DNA of 64,000 nucleotides. Source: Truepera radiovictrix DSM 17093. GTDB lineage: Bacteria; Deinococcota; Deinococci; Deinococcales; Trueperaceae. Positions 39,592-52,209 of the stretch are shown here, in pieces. The notes under the pieces were generated by a model. It was not told the origin of the DNA. It did no database searches and was given only the letters and a program-made list of their open reading frames with translations. A program made the position numbers and the translations under genes. The number at the start of each line of letters is the position of its first letter. Within the stretch, counting starts at the first letter, position 1. The stretch lies in assembly GCF_000092425.1 (NCBI RefSeq), contig NC_014221.1, forward strand, positions 2,361,001-2,425,000, in the 5' to 3' direction.

Positions 39592-39720
39592 ACGGTTGAC
39601 ACTCCACACGGCTAAAGCCGTGGGATTCTTGGTTCAGCGACAGCACTTGCCGAGCTGGCGGTTTCCCCCATCTCAGTAGAGGCGCTATCTCCCCAAGCGT
39701 AAGTTCCGATGTGCCCCACC
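39592..39720 (-). ncRNA. probable omega/reRNA of the TnpB element
   Basis: By comparison with known TnpB systems, the guide RNA overlaps the 3' end of tnpB and ends at the right end of the element. The hairpin at 39607-39622 and the low-constraint tail of tnpB match that. The guide would come from flanking DNA, starting AAACTCTGTGACCAGG in the glycosyltransferase gene. The left border at 39720 is a guess. Confidence 0.4.
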
Positions 39721-40811
39721 GTACCGATGCCCAAAGTGAGGATATTGCGGGCCGCGTTTTCATCGCGGTCTGCGACGTATCCACAGTGAGGGCATACGTG
39801 TGTGCGAGTAGATAGTGTCTTTTCGACCTTGCAGCCACACTCGCTACAAGCCTGACTGGTGTACTGAGGCGGGACGGCGACTGTGATGCGTCCAAACACC
39901 TTACCGAAGTATTCCAGCCAAGTTCTGAATTGATACCAAGAGGCATCACTGATGGATTTTGCAAGGCCGTGATTCTTCACCATGTTGCGGATTCTCAAAT
40001 CTTCATAGGCAACCAAGTCTGCCGACTGGATGACGCACCGCGCCAGTTTGATGGCGTGGTCTTTACGCTGCCGTTGGATTTGGAGATGCTTCCTGGCGAG
40101 ACGCTTCACGGCCTTGCGCCGATTATTCGACCCCTTGGCCTTCTTGCTCACGCGGCGTTGCAGCTTTTTGATCTGCTTTTCCGCCTTTCGCAAGAATCGG
40201 GGATTGGGTTCCTTATGGCCGTTGCTGTCCGTATAGAAGTCCTGTAGCCCTACGTCCAGACCGAGGGTCTTTCCGGTGGCTTCCAGTGGTTCTTTGCGGT
40301 CAGCATCCACGGCAAACTGGATGTAGTAGCCGTCTGCCTTCCTGACCAGCCGCACCCGCTTGATGAGCGAGGGGTGGTAAAAGAGCAGGTCACGGGTACC
40401 TTTCATCTTCAGTTTGCCGATACCGCATTTGTCAGTGAAGGTGATGGACTTACGGTCTTCCGAGAGCTTCCAGCCCGTCGTTTTGTACTCGACAGACCGG
40501 ACGTTCTTCTTGAACTGTGGGTAGCCCTTCTTGCCCTTCACCTTCTTCTTGCAGTTGTCGTAGAACCGAGCAATCGCGCTCCACGCTCTCTCGGCTGCCG
40601 CTTGGCGAGCCTGAGAGTTGAGGCGGTCTGCAAAGTCGTATTCAGCTGCAAGGACTGCACACAGCTTGTTGAGGTCGTACTTGCTGACGCCACGGTTGTC
40701 CATCCAGTAGCGCAAAGCCTTGTTCCTGATGAACTGGGTGACGCGGATGGCTTCGTCTATGGCGACGAATTGCTCCGCTCTCCCGTAGGCTTTGAACTCA
40801 AGGATGACCAT
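39612..40811 (-). CDS. tnpB: TnpB RNA-guided nuclease (OrfB)
   Basis: A 399-residue TnpB. The RuvC residues are all kept: Asp186 (LGLDVGL), Glu270 (VAYEDLRI) and Asp350 (DRDENAARN). A zinc finger has Cys322, 325, 340 and 343 (CSEC and CPHC). It should therefore be active. TnpB proteins of this family cut DNA guided by an RNA from the transposon right end. The last 40 residues are repetitive and lie where the guide RNA is encoded. The ATG is at 40811. Lower GC than neighbours marks it as foreign. Confidence 0.92.
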   Translation of the reverse strand: MVILEFKAYGRAEQFVAIDEAIRVTQFIRNKALRYWMDNRGVSKYDLNKLCAVLAAEYDFADRLNSQARQAAAERAWSAIARFYDNCKKKVKGKKGYPQFKKNVRSVEYKTTGWKLSEDRKSITFTDKCGIGKLKMKGTRDLLFYHPSLIKRVRLVRKADGYYIQFAVDADRKEPLEATGKTLGLDVGLQDFYTDSNGHKEPNPRFLRKAEKQIKKLQRRVSKKAKGSNNRRKAVKRLARKHLQIQRQRKDHAIKLARCVIQSADLVAYEDLRIRNMVKNHGLAKSISDASWYQFRTWLEYFGKVFGRITVAVPPQYTSQACSECGCKVEKTLSTRTHVCPHCGYVADRDENAARNILTLGIGTVGHIGTYAWGDSASTEMGETASSASAVAEPRIPRL

Positions 40812-45346: not shown

Positions 45347-46298
45347 GTTTCAATCCCCTGACGGGGCAGATCCTTTTGCAACTAGGGCAAAGGTCTTCTG
45401 TAGGCAGCTCAACTGTGATTGTTTCAATCCCCTGACGGGGCAGATCCTTTTGCAACTTCACGTTCACAGCACCGCCACCGGTAGGACCCGGTGGCTCGTT
45501 TCAATCCCCTGACGGGGCAGATCCTTTTGCAACCTCCCTCGTCTTTCGGTTCCCCCTTTTTATGCGTCTCTTGTTTCAATCCCCTGACGGGGCAGATCCT
45601 TTTGCAACACGAACCTGTGGTCATAGCTCAGGCCGGGCGCTACGAAACGGTTTCAATCCCCTGACGGGGCAGATCCTTTTGTAACCCATCGGAGGGGACA
45701 TCTGAGGGGGGCGCAACCTCGTTTGTGTTTCAATCCCCTGACGGGGCAGATCCTTTTGTAACAGGGAAATTCATGTTCGTAAACCTCACGCCACACCCAG
45801 TTAGTTTCAATCCCCTGACGGGGCAGATCCTTTTGTAACTGGAGGCATAAGATGGCTATCCTGGCGTTCAGAAAAAGCCAGTTTCAATCCCCTGACGGGG
45901 CAGATCCTTTTGTAACCAGACGCTCCTCACCTTCGCGACACTACCGACACCTGCCGGTTTCAATCCCCTGACGGGGCAGATCCTTTTGTAACCGCTCCGT
46001 CATACTCACCCGCGTCGAGGAGAGCCGCGTAAGGTTTCAATCCCCTGACGGGGCAGATCCTTTTGTAACCTGCGCGCCGCTTTCAAGCGCCTGGTCCTCA
46101 AGCACCACCCGTTTCAATCCCCTGACGGGGCAGATCCTTTTGTAACTCGTCGAGGGTAGCTGGCAGGACATCACCAACATGCGCCGGTTTCAATCCCCTG
46201 ACGGGGCAGATCCTTTTGTAACAAACGCAACCGCCCTGGGCGCACCGTCTTGTAAAACCATGGTTTCAATCCCCTGACGGGGCAGATCCTTTTGTAAC
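45347..46298 (-). CRISPR. CRISPR array, 13 repeats, no cas genes in the window
   Basis: Thirteen 36-base repeats with 12 spacers of 38-41 bases. On the plus strand each starts GTTTCAATCCCCTGACGGGG and ends CTTTTG[C/T]AAC. Repeat starts: 45347, 45421, 45498, 45573, 45650, 45727, 45804, 45881, 45957, 46034, 46111, 46187, 46263. The first four end GCAAC and the last nine GTAAC. On the minus strand the repeat ends ATTGAAAC, the usual 3' mark, so the array is probably transcribed leftward from a leader at the right. CCCC/GGGG would give a short repeat stem. Confidence 0.97.
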
Positions 46299-46749
46299 TC
46301 TACCCTCTGGGAGGCCCGTCTGGCAAGGGGTTTTTGAGGGTCATTTGACATCCCTCAAGTTATCCACAGCTTGGCCTGTGGATAACTCCAAAAGGACGAG
46401 GTGCGGGCTGTGGATAACCGCTAAGGGCGACTGACAAACGCTGAAACGTTCTTGCGTTAACACAGATTGTCAAGGTGCGCGTCACGGTGGGGGGCGTGAC
46501 GGTATAAGAATAACATATGCTGCGGGGTTATGCAGCTTATGGGGCGCTGGCGGGTTGCTCGCTATTTAAGACTTGGCGTTTGCGCCTCTATGTTACTTTG
46601 GAGTCATTCAAGTGCGCTCAGTGACGCTGGCGAAAGGTAGAGCGCAGCAGCTGGGTAACCAGTACGGCGTAGCCCTTGACGTCCCGACTACCACACCAGC
46701 GGAGCGTCCTGATTAGCCGACGTGGATCGCAAAGCCCGGAGAAGAGCTC
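46299..46749. other. non-coding leader/regulatory segment beside the CRISPR array
   Basis: About 450 bases without a convincing gene. It holds, in order, an inverted repeat TTGAGGG/CCCTCAA (46334-46340 and 46352-46358), the DnaA-box cluster, another inverted repeat CGTCACG/CGTGACG (46480-46486 and 46495-46501) and AT-rich text (46503-46520). It should include the CRISPR leader (reading left) and the promoter of the helicase gene (reading right). I could not place either -35/-10 pair. Confidence 0.55.
46358..46417. promoter_or_regulatory. cluster of three DnaA-box sequences
   Basis: TTATCCACA at 46360-46368 and its reverse complement TGTGGATAA at 46377-46385 and 46409-46417 match the classic DnaA box exactly. 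The first two lie in a perfect 12-base inverted repeat, AGTTATCCACAG (46358-46369) and CTGTGGATAACT (46376-46387), separated by six bases. No dnaA, dnaN or rep gene is in the window. Confidence 0.65.
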
Positions 46750-49700
46750 ATGAACACTTCTACAACTGCCGATGACCTCGCAGCACACCAGATCGAGCAG
46801 CTACGGACCAGACTGCTCGACCTACGCAGCAGCAACCCTCTGATTGCGTTTAAGCATAGCGACCGGGCTCGCACCCACGTGCGCGTCATCGACGCCGCTC
46901 CGGACATTCTCTTCAACCAGCTTATCGAAGGGCGCTCGCTAACCTTCGTCGCCCTTCCACCCCTCGAGGACGAACCCGCCGACGAGCGAAGCGACGCTTT
47001 CGTGACGGCGCTGCGCGAGGCCAAGCTGTCGGATGAGGCGTACTTGGCCGCGCTCGAGGCGCTCGGGGACGACCCTCCGGAGGCGAAGCTGGCCGAGGCC
47101 GAGCGCGCGCTGAGAGATCGCCTGAGAAAGACCTTGGGGCTACCCGAACGCCCTAAAAAGGAGCGCCCCACACTGAGCGACTGGGCGCGGGAAAACGGCA
47201 TCGACCCGAGCTACGACCTGTCGGCTAGGCATCGGCAGGCCCTCGTGCCCACGGAGCGCCTTAACGCGGAGATTCAGACGCTCCTGCTGCCCGAGGCTTT
47301 CGAGAGAAAACTCGGCGGGCTCCTCACCTACGCGCGCACCAGCCTTCAAGAGCTGGGGATCAACACGCTCTACTGCGTCTTCGGCTTTCTCGAGTGGTAC
47401 GAGAGCGACGCGTCGGATCGGCCCATCCTGTCGCCCCTGCTGTTGCACTCGGTCGAACTGCAACGCACCCTGCAGGGCTCAACGTACCGCTTCTCGATCA
47501 GCAGCATGGGTGAGGAGACGGTCGTCAACGTCACCCTCAACGAGCGGCTGGGACGCGACTTCAACCTCTTGTTACCGCCCTTGGAGGGTGACGAGGGTCC
47601 TGAAGCGTACTTTGAAACCGTCACTAAGATCATCCGAGATAAACCCAGGTGGCGTGTTAGACGCTTCGTCACCGTCGGGCGTTTTTCGTTTGCCCGCCTC
47701 GCCATGTACCACGATCTCGACCCCAGCAAGTGGCCCTCCCATCGACCGCTGACAGCGCACCCAGCTGTAAGGGAGCTGTTAACGGGTACCGACCGCGACG
47801 CCCCTTTTTTCTCGGAGGTCTACGATACCGACGCACCCGCCATCTCCCGTCAGGTTCCTCTGCTCATCACGGACGCCGACGCTTCGCAGTTTAGCGCCGT
47901 CGTCGACGTCATGCGCGGCACCAACCTGGCCATCGAAGGTCCGCCGGGCACCGGTAAGTCGCAGACGATCACCAACATCATCGCCGCCGCCCTCGCCAAG
48001 GGGCAGCGCGTCCTCTTCGTCGCCGAGAAGATCGCCGCGCTCGAGGTCGTCAAAAAACGCCTCGACGACGCTGGGTTGGGCGAGTTCTGTCTCGAGCTCC
48101 ACTCGACCAAAGCGAAAAAAACCGAGGTGCTCGACGCGCTCGGTAAACGGTTGGATCTGCAGCACCGCATCCCCCCTCCCGCCGAGCTCGACGAAGCCTT
48201 GGCGGAGTTAAACGACCTTAAAAGACGCCTTACGGCCTACGCCGAGGCGATGAACGCCGAGGTCGGGGCGCTGCGCAAGACGGTCCACGACCTTTTGTGG
48301 TTCCAGCAGCGCTTTCAGGCCGCGCAGAACGCCCCCAGCAGCTTGCCGGACGTCGCTTTGCAGGACGCCGAGGCGCTCACACAGGCGCAGCTCGCCGAGG
48401 CCAAGGATACGCTGACGCTCCTCAACCGTCTGCACGCGGAGCTGACACAGGCCTACGGCAGCGCCCGCACGCACCCCTTTTACGGGGTCAACAACGCTGA
48501 CCTGCCCCCCTTCGCACAAGCCGAGCTGCTAGCTGCGCTGCGGCAGTGGTCGAGCACCCTGCAGGCGTTGCACCAGACGCTTCAGACGCTAGGGCTCGAA
48601 GACGCCGACGAGTACACCCTCGATAGGATCACGCACCTCACCGATCAGCTAGCTGGGCTGCCCGCACCTGAAAGCCTGCCGTTCGAACCGAGCCTGATGA
48701 GGGTAGGGGCGTCGGCTGCGCGCGAGGAGGTCGCACGAACCTTTCAGCAGCGCCTGCTGAGCTTCCAGAAGCGGTACGCCAACCTCGCCTGTGCGAGCAC
48801 GAACCCCGATCACCTGCTCGATCATCCCGCGCTACTCAGCGCCGCTCACACCCTGTGCGCTGAGCTGGCCCTCGACGACGAGCGTGTCGGGGAGCTGCCG
48901 CACATGGTGGCGCAGGCTCGAGCCGACCTGGACACGCACGGCCGCATCCGGGGGCTCGTTCAGGACCTCGCTCAGACCCTGGGCGTCGCTCCGCCCACCG
49001 TGCTGGGGGAGCTGAAAGGGCTCGTCACCGCCGTCGAGCTGATCGGCCAGACCACCGACACCACGCTGAAGCTGCGGCGTCCGGCGCTGCTCGAGGAGGG
49101 GAGCAGCGTCGCGCTCGAGCGCCTGGACGCCCGCTTGGCGGCGCTGCGGGAAACGCACACGGAGCTCAAACCCATCTTCCACATCCCCGCTGACGTGGGT
49201 CAAGCGGAGGCGCTCCGGCAACACGCTCAGGCGCTACGAGGGGCCGGTCTCTTCTCCTGTTTCAACCAACGGGTGCGCGAGGCGAAGCAGGCGTACCGGG
49301 GGCTGCGCCGCGAGGACGTCCGTCTGCCCACGCGAACGATGGCCGACGAGCTGGAGGCTCTGGCTAGTCACCTGCACGAGCTTCAGGCGTTTGCCAACGA
49401 CCCCGCCCTCCACCACCTCGCCGGTCCTTTCGCCGAGGGGCTCGATACCCCCACCGCCGACCTTCTAGCGGTCACGCGCTTTGCCGAAGCGGTGCGGCTG
49501 CACCTTCAGCCGACGAGCCCCCTCCTGTCGGCCCTTTGCACCCAGCTGCTCAAGGGGCCGAGCACGGCGTTAGAGGCGGCGCGCCTGCTCAGCGCCTCAC
49601 CGGACTACGCAGCGCTCAAACGCGTCGCCCAGGCGCTGAGCGGCCGCGAGACGCAACCGCTGACCGACTTCGCCGAAACGCTGAGCACGAGGGTGCAACG

Positions 49701-52209
49701 GTTAGAAGCGCTCGCGGCCGAGCTGCACGCTCTCGCGCTCGACCCCCAGCTCGCTTTGTCGTCGCTCGAGCCGCTTGCGCGAGACGCCCTGGACCTCCAC
49801 GCTCTGCGCGCCGAGCTGGCGGCGCAAGCAGCCTCCCGGTCGTTTCTCGGGGCGCTCGACCGGGGCGTCAAGACCGACCCCGAGATGCTCGCCAGCCTCC
49901 TCACGACCGTTGAGCGCGTCCGGGCGCTCGAGCTCCCCGCCGCGCTCAAAACGCGCCTCTTCACAGACGCCTACCGGGCTGAAGCCACGCGCCTGCGCGA
50001 GCTGCGCGCGGTGCTGGTCGCGCAGCTTCACGACGAAGCGCGCGCCGCGGAGCGCGCCAACGACCTCGCCCAGCTCGAGGAGACCACGTTCTTCGGGCGG
50101 GCGCTGCCGGAGCTGCCGCTCGCCGCCGCCATCCGCCGCCTGGAGGCGGCGGGGGCCGCTAGCGAGGCGCTCGACGGGTGGGTCCAGTACTTGCGGGCGC
50201 ACCGACGGGCGCGCGCGCTCCACCTCCAAGCCTTTCTGCCCTCCTCCCAACGCGACCTCGCCGACCCCGCGGCCGCCTTTGAGTACGCCGTGGCTCGGGC
50301 CCTCACCAAAATCGCCTACGACCGCTTTCCGGTGCTCAGCGACGTTTCCGGCGAACGCCACATGCAGCTCCGCGAGCGCTTCGCGGAGCTCGACCGGCGC
50401 ACGCTCGAGCTGCAGCGCCGCAAGCTCGCGGCCGAGCTGGCACACAAACCAGTCACGTGGGGCGTGGGCGCCGGCCCCAAAAAGAGCTACACCGAGCGCG
50501 CGCTCATCGAGCACGAGCGCAGCAAGAAAAAACGCCACATCGCCCTGCGCAACCTCCTCAGCCGTGCCGGCACCGCCATCCAGGAGTTGAAACCGTGCTT
50601 TATGATGTCGCCTCTGTCCATCGGTCACTACCTCCCGCCGGGCAGCCTCGAGTTTGACCTCATCATCATCGACGAAGCCTCCCAGATGAAACCGGAGGAC
50701 GCCATCGGCGCGGTCGCACGCGCCGAGCAGCTGGTCGTCGTCGGCGACACCAAGCAGCTCCCCCCGACGACCTTTTTCGAACGCAGCGACACCCCCGACG
50801 AGGAGGATGAGGAGACGGTGGAGGCGGAGTCGATCCTCGACCTCGCCCTAGCCGTCTACCGACCCGCTAGGCGGCTACTGTGGCACTACCGTTCGCGCCA
50901 CGAAGACCTCATCGCCTTCTCCAACCGCCACTTCTACGACAACAGCCTGATCGTCTTCCCCTCCCCCGTGCGCGACGCGCGCACCTACGGCGTCACCAGC
51001 ACCTTCGTCGGGGGCACCTATCAGGCGCAGGTGCGGGTCAACCGCAAGGAGATCACCGCCGTGACCGAGGCGGCGCTGCGCTTTATGCAAGAGCACCCGC
51101 AGCGCAGCTTGGGGATCGTCGCCCTCAACCAAGCGCAACGCGACGCCCTCGAAGAGGAGCTCGACCGCGCCATCGCCAAAGATCGGGCCGCTCAGCGCTA
51201 CCTCGAGCGCTGGGAGGGTTCGCTCGAGCCCTTTTTCGTCAAAAATCTCGAGAACGTCCAGGGAGACGAGCGCGACGTCATCTTTATCTCGACCGTCTAC
51301 GGCCCCGACGCGCGGGGAACGGTGGCGCAGCGCTTCGGCCCGATTAACAGCGCAGGGGGGCACCGCCGTCTCAACGTGCTCTTCACCCGCGCCAAGTGTC
51401 AGGTGCGCGTCTTTACCTCGCTCAAGCCGGGCGACATCAGGGTCACGCCGGAGTCGCGCCAAGGGGTGCGCGCCCTGCGCGACTACCTCGAGTACGCCGC
51501 GACCGGCAGGTTGGAGACGGGGACCCCGACCGGTCGCGAACCCGATTCGGACTTTGAAGTCATGGTGATGGCGTGCCTTCGACGCGCGGGGTACGAAGCC
51601 ACACCCCAGGTAGGGGTAGCGGGGTACTTCGTCGACCTCGCGGTGCACCACCCGCACGCGGCGGGGTCCTACCTGGCGGCGATCGAGTGCGACGGCGCCA
51701 CCTATCACTCGAGCAAAGCCGCGCGCGACCGGGACCGCTTGCGCCAGGAGGTGCTCGAGCGCCTAGGGTGGCACGTGTACCGGATCTGGTCGACCGACTG
51801 GTTTTCCAACCCCGACAAAGAAACCAAAAAGCTGCGGGCCTACCTCGACCAACTGGCCCGCAAGACCGCGGCTCAGGGGACGCCAGCCAGCGGGGTGCCG
51901 CGCCGCACCTCCTTACCTGCGCCACCCAATGGCAAACCGAAGGCGCCGGCACCGAAAGCGCCCGGAAAGCCGCAGGGCGCGGTTGTCCGGGTCGGCGACT
52001 TCGTCCGCTACTGCGACGCCAACGACCTTGGGCAAGTGTTTACCGTGCAGATCACCGTGGGCACGAGCAAACCCGAGATGGGCATCATCAACTACCAAAC
52101 GCCGGTCGCGCGGGCCCTGCTGGGCAAGCGGGTGAACGAGGTCGCCACCATCCACCTGCCCTTGGGGACCACCGAAGTGATCGTCCTCGAGATCCACAAA
52201 ACGGGGTAG
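46750..52209 (+). CDS. giant DUF4011-type SF1 helicase - Vsr/MTES_1575-like nuclease - GreA/B C-terminal fusion
   Basis: An 1819-residue protein. Residues about 10-340 are a DUF4011-like region. Walker A GPPGTGKS is at 397-404, followed by a long helical insert to about 1290. Walker B IIIDEASQM has Asp1308, motif III GDTKQLPPT begins at 1332, and later motifs are YRSRHEDL (about 1380), QGDERDVIFIS (about 1504) and RLNVLFTRAK (1540). Residues 1601-1710 are a nuclease with Asp1629 (FVDLAV), Glu1646 (IECDGATYH) and RIWSTDWF. Residues about 1745-1819 match the GreA/GreB C-terminal domain (GDFVRYCD, ARALLGKRV). ATG follows GGAGAAG. Likely genome defence or DNA/RNA processing. It stands alone beside a cas-less CRISPR. 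Confidence 0.85.
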   Translation: MNTSTTADDLAAHQIEQLRTRLLDLRSSNPLIAFKHSDRARTHVRVIDAAPDILFNQLIEGRSLTFVALPPLEDEPADERSDAFVTALREAKLSDEAYLAALEALGDDPPEAKLAEAERALRDRLRKTLGLPERPKKERPTLSDWARENGIDPSYDLSARHRQALVPTERLNAEIQTLLLPEAFERKLGGLLTYARTSLQELGINTLYCVFGFLEWYESDASDRPILSPLLLHSVELQRTLQGSTYRFSISSMGEETVVNVTLNERLGRDFNLLLPPLEGDEGPEAYFETVTKIIRDKPRWRVRRFVTVGRFSFARLAMYHDLDPSKWPSHRPLTAHPAVRELLTGTDRDAPFFSEVYDTDAPAISRQVPLLITDADASQFSAVVDVMRGTNLAIEGPPGTGKSQTITNIIAAALAKGQRVLFVAEKIAALEVVKKRLDDAGLGEFCLELHSTKAKKTEVLDALGKRLDLQHRIPPPAELDEALAELNDLKRRLTAYAEAMNAEVGALRKTVHDLLWFQQRFQAAQNAPSSLPDVALQDAEALTQAQLAEAKDTLTLLNRLHAELTQAYGSARTHPFYGVNNADLPPFAQAELLAALRQWSSTLQALHQTLQTLGLEDADEYTLDRITHLTDQLAGLPAPESLPFEPSLMRVGASAAREEVARTFQQRLLSFQKRYANLACASTNPDHLLDHPALLSAAHTLCAELALDDERVGELPHMVAQARADLDTHGRIRGLVQDLAQTLGVAPPTVLGELKGLVTAVELIGQTTDTTLKLRRPALLEEGSSVALERLDARLAALRETHTELKPIFHIPADVGQAEALRQHAQALRGAGLFSCFNQRVREAKQAYRGLRREDVRLPTRTMADELEALASHLHELQAFANDPALHHLAGPFAEGLDTPTADLLAVTRFAEAVRLHLQPTSPLLSALCTQLLKGPSTALEAARLLSASPDYAALKRVAQALSGRETQPLTDFAETLSTRVQRLEALAAELHALALDPQLALSSLEPLARDALDLHALRAELAAQAASRSFLGALDRGVKTDPEMLASLLTTVERVRALELPAALKTRLFTDAYRAEATRLRELRAVLVAQLHDEARAAERANDLAQLEETTFFGRALPELPLAAAIRRLEAAGAASEALDGWVQYLRAHRRARALHLQAFLPSSQRDLADPAAAFEYAVARALTKIAYDRFPVLSDVSGERHMQLRERFAELDRRTLELQRRKLAAELAHKPVTWGVGAGPKKSYTERALIEHERSKKKRHIALRNLLSRAGTAIQELKPCFMMSPLSIGHYLPPGSLEFDLIIIDEASQMKPEDAIGAVARAEQLVVVGDTKQLPPTTFFERSDTPDEEDEETVEAESILDLALAVYRPARRLLWHYRSRHEDLIAFSNRHFYDNSLIVFPSPVRDARTYGVTSTFVGGTYQAQVRVNRKEITAVTEAALRFMQEHPQRSLGIVALNQAQRDALEEELDRAIAKDRAAQRYLERWEGSLEPFFVKNLENVQGDERDVIFISTVYGPDARGTVAQRFGPINSAGGHRRLNVLFTRAKCQVRVFTSLKPGDIRVTPESRQGVRALRDYLEYAATGRLETGTPTGREPDSDFEVMVMACLRRAGYEATPQVGVAGYFVDLAVHHPHAAGSYLAAIECDGATYHSSKAARDRDRLRQEVLERLGWHVYRIWSTDWFSNPDKETKKLRAYLDQLARKTAAQGTPASGVPRRTSLPAPPNGKPKAPAPKAPGKPQGAVVRVGDFVRYCDANDLGQVFTVQITVGTSKPEMGIINYQTPVARALLGKRVNEVATIHLPLGTTEVIVLEIHKTG

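Follow-up and report, generated by a model that had tools for sequence, protein, structure and literature searches.

A Hhe-like helicase-nuclease of Truepera radiovictrix with a C-terminal GreA/GreB domain

Within a 64,000-nucleotide stretch of the Truepera radiovictrix genome (the window, whose positions are used below unless another sequence is named), we identified a gene whose product is Hhe-like by sequence, its body being related to a known anti-phage helicase-nuclease, and ends in a genuine GreA/GreB C-terminal domain (hereafter Gre domain). Tails of this type are carried by a sub-group of relatives from several phyla, and in one member the Gre domain has been exchanged for DksA, suggesting that proteins of this branch act on transcription complexes. 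Features of the protein, its relatives and their surroundings are described below.

Domain architecture and kinship to Hhe

The open reading frame is intact from ATG to TAG, with 1819 codons and no break, and the opposite strand across 46750-52209 is interrupted by stops (Table 1). The first-pass annotation had read the locus as a one-gene fusion of 1819 residues with intact SF1 helicase motifs, and both readings hold, as the domains lie in one chain encoded by a single open frame; the system likewise appears, as had been supposed, to consist of a single gene. The helicase core is of the SF1 (Upf1-like) type and is interrupted by a long insertion; motif I lies at residue 397 and motifs II to VI between residues 1308 and 1549, and the Pfam pieces correspond to AAA_11, AAA_12 and AAA_19. 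All of the named motifs were found: GPPGTGKS at 397, DEASQ at 1308, VGDTKQLPPT at 1331, NVQGDERDVI at 1502 and NVLFTRAK at 1542. The residues that the annotation had assigned to the nuclease site, Asp1629 and Glu1646, were correctly chosen, and E1603 and D1648 are equally invariant, all four being present in 24 of 24 Gre-tailed sequences. The body domains, the catalytic motifs and the Gre domain are thus evident from the sequence and from a structural model.

Table 1. Positions of the helicase-nuclease gene, its domains and the neighbouring CRISPR array in the window
Feature	Position	Strand	Evidence
Hhe-like DUF4011 / SF1 helicase / MTES_1575 nuclease / GreA_GreB C-terminal protein, 1819 aa	46750..52209	+	ORF and profile matches
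DUF4011 domain, residues 21-267	46810..47550	+	Pfam PF13195 1.4e-36
First helicase piece, Walker A GPPGTGKS (residue 397), residues about 397-434	47938..48051	+	Motif position; AAA_19/AAA_30
Second helicase piece, residues 1301-1556, motif II (DEASQ 1308), III (1331) to VI (1542)	50650..51417	+	AAA_11/AAA_12; motif positions
MTES_1575 / Vsr-fold nuclease, residues 1602-1698	51553..51843	+	PF18741 5.8e-37; conservation; VIA-align Z 11.3 to Vsr 1cw0
Linker, residues 1713-1740, pLDDT under 50, probably disordered	51886..51969	+	AlphaFold2 model
GreA/GreB C-terminal domain, residues 1744-1816, without Gre N-terminal coiled coil	51979..52197	+	PF01272 1.4e-9; structure matches
Neighbouring CRISPR array with 13 repeats of 36 nt, listed for context and not claimed for the system	45347..46298	.	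Repeat detection

Kinship to a defence family, as the annotation had proposed, is borne out by the body of the protein, where the domain order DUF4011, split SF1 helicase and MTES_1575/Vsr-fold nuclease is that of the anti-phage protein Hhe. The NCBIfam model Hhe_antiphage (NF042953) matches residues 15-1708 with 1424 bits, which does not reach the equivalog cut-off of 2000 bits, and among PADLOC models PDC-S37 scores best (1270 bits) and Hhe 973 bits. Because the body matches Hhe and PDC-S37 end to end but remains under the equivalog cut-off, we describe the protein as Hhe-like and not as a Hhe equivalog. The canonical Hhe tail is present in two relatives (L213 and L214; E 4.8e-35 and 2.9e-29), and the window protein has the Gre domain in that place.

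Hhe is among the helicase-bearing systems followed by DefenseFinder (PMC12278908). The literature searched yielded no mechanistic account of the Hhe family and nothing that names both Hhe and DUF4011; those papers naming GreA together with DUF4011 that were examined have no bearing on a fusion. An apparent mention of 'GreA' in the DefensePredictor paper was rejected, the string being part of the word 'greater'.

The C-terminal tail and its replacement by DksA

The annotation had offered its C-terminal GreA/GreB-type domain as refutable by an HMM search, and the search finds it: residues 1744-1816 match GreA_GreB (PF01272) with an E-value of 1.4e-9 and 38.2 bits, compared with a gathering score of 26.9. 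In an AlphaFold2 model covering residues 1595-1819 the domain has a pLDDT of about 88-98 per block, and Foldseek against the PDB places GreA, GreB, Gfh1 or Rnk at all of ranks 1-14. VIA-align superposes the tail on GreA with Z 13.2 (1.8 A over 74 residues, 30% identity), followed by Gfh1 (12.5), GreB (10.2), Rnk (8.6) and the Gre-like part of HelD (7.8), and FKBP folds score about 7. The N-terminal coiled coil of Gre factors, with its acidic tip, is absent; the nuclease and the low-confidence linker precede the domain, and the model predicts no paired coiled coil upstream of it, the long helix at 1688-1708 belonging to the C-terminal side of the nuclease. In Gre factors it is the coiled coil that bears the catalytic tip and reaches the active site of the polymerase, so that the tail, lacking it, looks like a docking module and not a cleavage factor. 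Members of the GreA/B-C domain family bind at the beta' rim helices, next to the secondary channel. Even Rnk, whose coiled coil is short, retains binding to RNA polymerase, in competition with Gre and DksA. The globular domains of Gre and DksA bind the same beta' rim helices (PMC7527559). From this homology, and from the DksA replacement described below, we infer that the tail would dock at the beta' rim helices of RNA polymerase.

Scanning a genome collection returned 76 relatives of the window protein, and GreA_GreB was matched by 24 of 24 aligned tails (the window tail and those of 23 relatives). The stretch (S/T)-P-x-A-x-A-L-L-G recurs in these tails, P1785 being kept in 21 of the 24 and D1750 and Y1754 in all. 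Gre-tailed records are mostly from Pseudomonadota, with single ones from Bdellovibrionota, Myxococcota, Thermodesulfobacteriota, Planctomycetota and Acidobacteriota, although most are metagenome bins and their phylum names are thus only as reliable as the bins. The nuclease region was found in 8 of 111 sampled Deinococcota genomes, in 15 of 369 from the class of a Cupriavidus genome and in 27 of 289 from the class of the genome carrying relative L012. The Gre version occurs in few of the sampled genomes that bear the region, and within the Deinococcota sample in the window's genome only. Two relatives were found in IMG/VR, neither with a Gre tail, and an IMG/VR query with the DksA-tailed protein (L045, below) gave none; annotated phages gave one nuclease match, which is weak.

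Other tails are common. Among 158 nuclease-containing ORFs (all searches pooled, duplicates included, tails labelled with profiles built for this analysis), 34 carry a Gre, 60 a DUF3320-like and 22 a Hhe-type tail; in 29 the frame stops shortly after the nuclease. DUF3320 ends 12 of 28 non-Gre tails, in keeping with the earlier statement that relatives of the DUF4011 class often end in it. Both types can share one protein, as in L185:1465-2730 (+), where Gre is followed by a DUF3320-like stretch, and L183:1039-2415 (-) has further C-terminal sequence after its Gre domain. An in-frame stop separates nuclease from Gre in L184 (around 1758-2238), reflecting decay, a sequencing error or a split gene. 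In the order of the window's genome, L162 and L163 are distant MTES_1575 relatives with another conserved tail (about ...HFAGWERKLIF..YVK.G..SYKQARQA...). At the other end of the protein, a relative of 2657 codons from a planctomycete bin (L064:2513-10483) has about 950 extra residues ahead of the DUF4011 region.

Trees were built from the C-terminal half of the helicase and the nuclease, with the tail excluded. Most Gre-tailed proteins form one clade (SH-aLRT 96 with 143 rows; 100/96 with 64 rows), and these sequences support the Gre tail as a common feature of a clade. The window protein itself is not a member of the main Gre clade; its closest neighbours are L012, L182 and several relatives without a tail, in a region of the tree where tails repeatedly appear and disappear. 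Tail-less proteins are also close relatives of Gre-tailed members (L024, L046 and L065). Tail labels require 8-9 changes on these trees, which is an overestimate because of truncated ORFs, the L184 stop before Gre and the separate label given to L212 despite its Gre tail. These trees do not separate gain from loss, nor do they decide for or against a single origin of the Gre tail.

The replacement of Gre by DksA is found in a metagenome-assembled genome titled Akkermansia muciniphila. The Hhe-like protein encoded there, at L045:7053-13604, terminates in a complete DksA (zf-dskA_traR 1.6e-7; 6ptg E 1.6e-17 over tail residues 61-176). The frame is uninterrupted across 2183 codons, and the start-type codons between the nuclease and the DksA match amount to a single GTG. 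The assembly also has a separate, stand-alone DksA, with which this tail shares 71% identity; the tail is thus not a duplicate of that gene, nor is it the product of a simple join in assembly. L045 falls inside the Gre clade (100/96), its nesting supported by 98/95 and 99/94, and a tree that groups the remaining members without L045 is rejected (p-AU 0.0075, for a group named after the tree was seen). No further DksA-tailed relatives were found among 289 sampled genomes of its phylum or in its three-genome family. The island around the gene also contains a tyrosine integrase, a primase-like gene and a YhcG/DUF1016-type gene. Since Gre and DksA share a site on RNA polymerase, the exchange is the best evidence that the tail docks there, and such a replacement, here a single example, is the outcome expected under selection for contact with the beta' rim.

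Genomic context

The neighbours of the gene in the window are of a housekeeping kind (phosphoglucose isomerase, UbiA, three tRNA genes, SIMPL, an aldehyde dehydrogenase and a cytochrome), together with the CRISPR array. Homologues are not confined to such contexts, which the annotation had held would count against its defence idea; many defence genes lie near Gre-tailed relatives. We read qualitatively 138 ORFs around 22 Gre-tailed or DksA-tailed relatives and found IetA/IetS, Azaca ZacA/ZacB, Old and PDC-S01/S02/S05, as well as type I methylases and specificity subunits, a type IIG enzyme and a type II methylase. Integrases and a YhcG nuclease likewise occur near these relatives, and one Gre-tailed member is borne by a Rhizobium plasmid. 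The composition of the gene is that of the Truepera genome, and the other genome of the genus contains no match to the protein and no conserved gene order at the site; recent insertion in Truepera is thus unsupported.

The annotation had called the neighbouring CRISPR array cas-less, which is correct locally, no cas genes adjoining it, but not for the genome as a whole. A near-identical repeat (0-2 mismatches) is present in four other arrays, at about 112, 471, 476 and 2586 kb; the 471-kb and 476-kb arrays border on a locus with Cas1, Cas6 and two Csx1 genes. A special partnership of the gene with the array was rejected on these grounds, and nothing ties the array to the helicase-nuclease gene. 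Read as its reverse complement, the repeat has the usual crRNA handle, ATTGAAAC, at its end, and the array is therefore probably transcribed on the minus strand, which would put the leader between array and gene (46299-46749). Variants of the repeat (TTTTGCAAC) lie at the far, low-coordinate end, as expected of the old end. Two other observations concern the genome at large. Window positions 39612-40811 (-) carry a TnpB/IS605 OrfB-like gene (OrfB_IS605, Cas12f1-like TNB) with a G+C of 0.55, clearly below its surroundings, and 2,508,244-2,508,849 (-) of the Truepera genome gives a weak Cas1 match as two adjacent pieces of one 321-codon frame, strong Cas1 genes being located at 472 kb and 1.80 Mb.

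Possible functions and known systems

The explanation that we favour, tentatively, is a Hhe-like defence helicase-nuclease belonging to a sub-group whose C-terminus docks on RNA polymerase. Held with somewhat greater reserve is the fuller reading of a transcription-coupled branch, in which invaders would be found at RNA polymerase by way of an exchangeable GreA/B-C or DksA domain and nucleic acid attacked where polymerases have stalled on foreign DNA or been hijacked by it. The tail would tether the enzyme at the rim of the secondary channel, the site where backtracked RNA exits, and the tethered polymerases would most likely be stalled, backtracked or phage-hijacked complexes. The SF1 motor could then engage nucleic acid exposed at the complex, whether extruded RNA, an R-loop or bubble DNA, and the nuclease would cut what the motor had engaged, with the result that invader expression is stopped or the invader degraded. 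The target, the trigger and the protection against phage are all things that we infer. Against this explanation stand the score below the Hhe cut-off, the housekeeping neighbours in the window, the genome-like composition, the free turnover of tails and the fact that the DksA exchange is one case from a metagenome-assembled genome.

The same domain evidence (the PF01272 match, the Foldseek ranks and the Z of 13.2 to GreA) would suit a guard or brake, in which docking on host RNA polymerase keeps the helicase-nuclease inactive until a phage shuts the polymerase off or takes it over, the tail serving as a sensor and not for targeting. Occupancy of the secondary channel by DksA and Gre does shift with the state of the polymerase (PMC4598747). 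However, targeting is the simpler reading and has been proposed in print for another GreA/B-C system (PMC8195603), and we regard a guard as unlikely. Much the same weight is given to an incidental tail on an ordinary Hhe-like enzyme, the FKBP-like Gre domain then being an interchangeable appendage that has lost its polymerase contact and serves folding, dimerisation or another partner. Tail turnover is indeed common, as the pooled count (duplicates included) and the tail-less L024, L046 and L065 illustrate, and FKBP folds also match the domain. Yet the Gre-family matches stand well above the FKBPs (Z 10-13 versus 7), the Gre motif is kept across phyla, and its exchange for DksA, which binds the same place on the polymerase, would have to be coincidence.

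Quite improbable, in our judgement, is a housekeeping role in clearing stalled RNA polymerase or transcription-replication conflicts in the manner of HelD, perhaps serving DNA repair in a radiation-resistant host and not directed against phage. The spread is patchy, with the nuclease region in few Deinococcota genomes and the Gre version in the window's genome alone; kinship to Hhe is full-length; relatives occur on plasmids and beside restriction genes, other defence genes or integrases; and HelD is, to our knowledge, without a nuclease. What speaks for such a role is that HelD couples an SF1-type motor to a Gre-like arm (PMC7749165) to which the tail is structurally similar, that the window neighbours are housekeeping genes, and that in every Pseudomonas aeruginosa isolate a DUF4011 core gene borders a defence hotspot (PMC10250203).

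Our preferred reading, a polymerase-docking defence enzyme, has partial counterparts among known systems. Hhe (PADLOC PDLC02194; DefenseFinder HheA) has the same body, but its canonical forms, from Klebsiella and Vibrio plasmids, carry their own conserved tail without a Gre domain; PDC-S37, the closest PADLOC model, is a computational candidate system only. The Gre-like part of HelD, a recycling factor of RNA polymerase, engages the secondary channel (PMC7749165). That part is an N-terminal arm with a coiled coil, joined to a UvrD-like motor without DUF4011 in a protein of housekeeping role, whereas in the window protein the Gre part is C-terminal and a nuclease is present. Rnk and Gfh1 are GreA/B-C proteins that bind to RNA polymerase without stimulating transcript cleavage (PMC4598747), but they are small stand-alone factors and not the tail of an 1819-residue protein. 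Hachiman HamAB resembles the window protein in coupling a helicase to a nuclease in phage defence (PMC12278908); it is, however, a two-gene complex of other helicase and nuclease families that senses DNA ends and has no polymerase-docking part.

The nearest precedent for the tail is the TPR-GreA/B-C-PIN conflict systems, in which GreA/B-C was proposed to direct a nuclease to RNA polymerases engaged on viral DNA and whose genes mostly stand alone (Kaur et al. 2021, PMC8195603). This limits the surprise, GreA/B-C in conflict systems having been published in 2021 for another architecture. Those systems combine TPR, PIN and variable N-terminal effectors, and the window protein, which has no TPR-repeat or PIN match in Pfam, has DUF4011, an SF1 helicase and a Vsr-fold nuclease instead; neither DUF4011 nor DksA is mentioned in PMC8195603. 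What is new, as judged from the sequences, is a Hhe-like sub-group with a polymerase-docking type of tail and one natural replacement of it. If the preferred reading is true, the protein would be a concrete single-gene case of immunity directed at the transcription complex and would provide a first handle on targeting in part of the Hhe family. The natural replacement of Gre by DksA would be an independent pointer to the binding site, of a kind absent from other GreA/B-C conflict systems.
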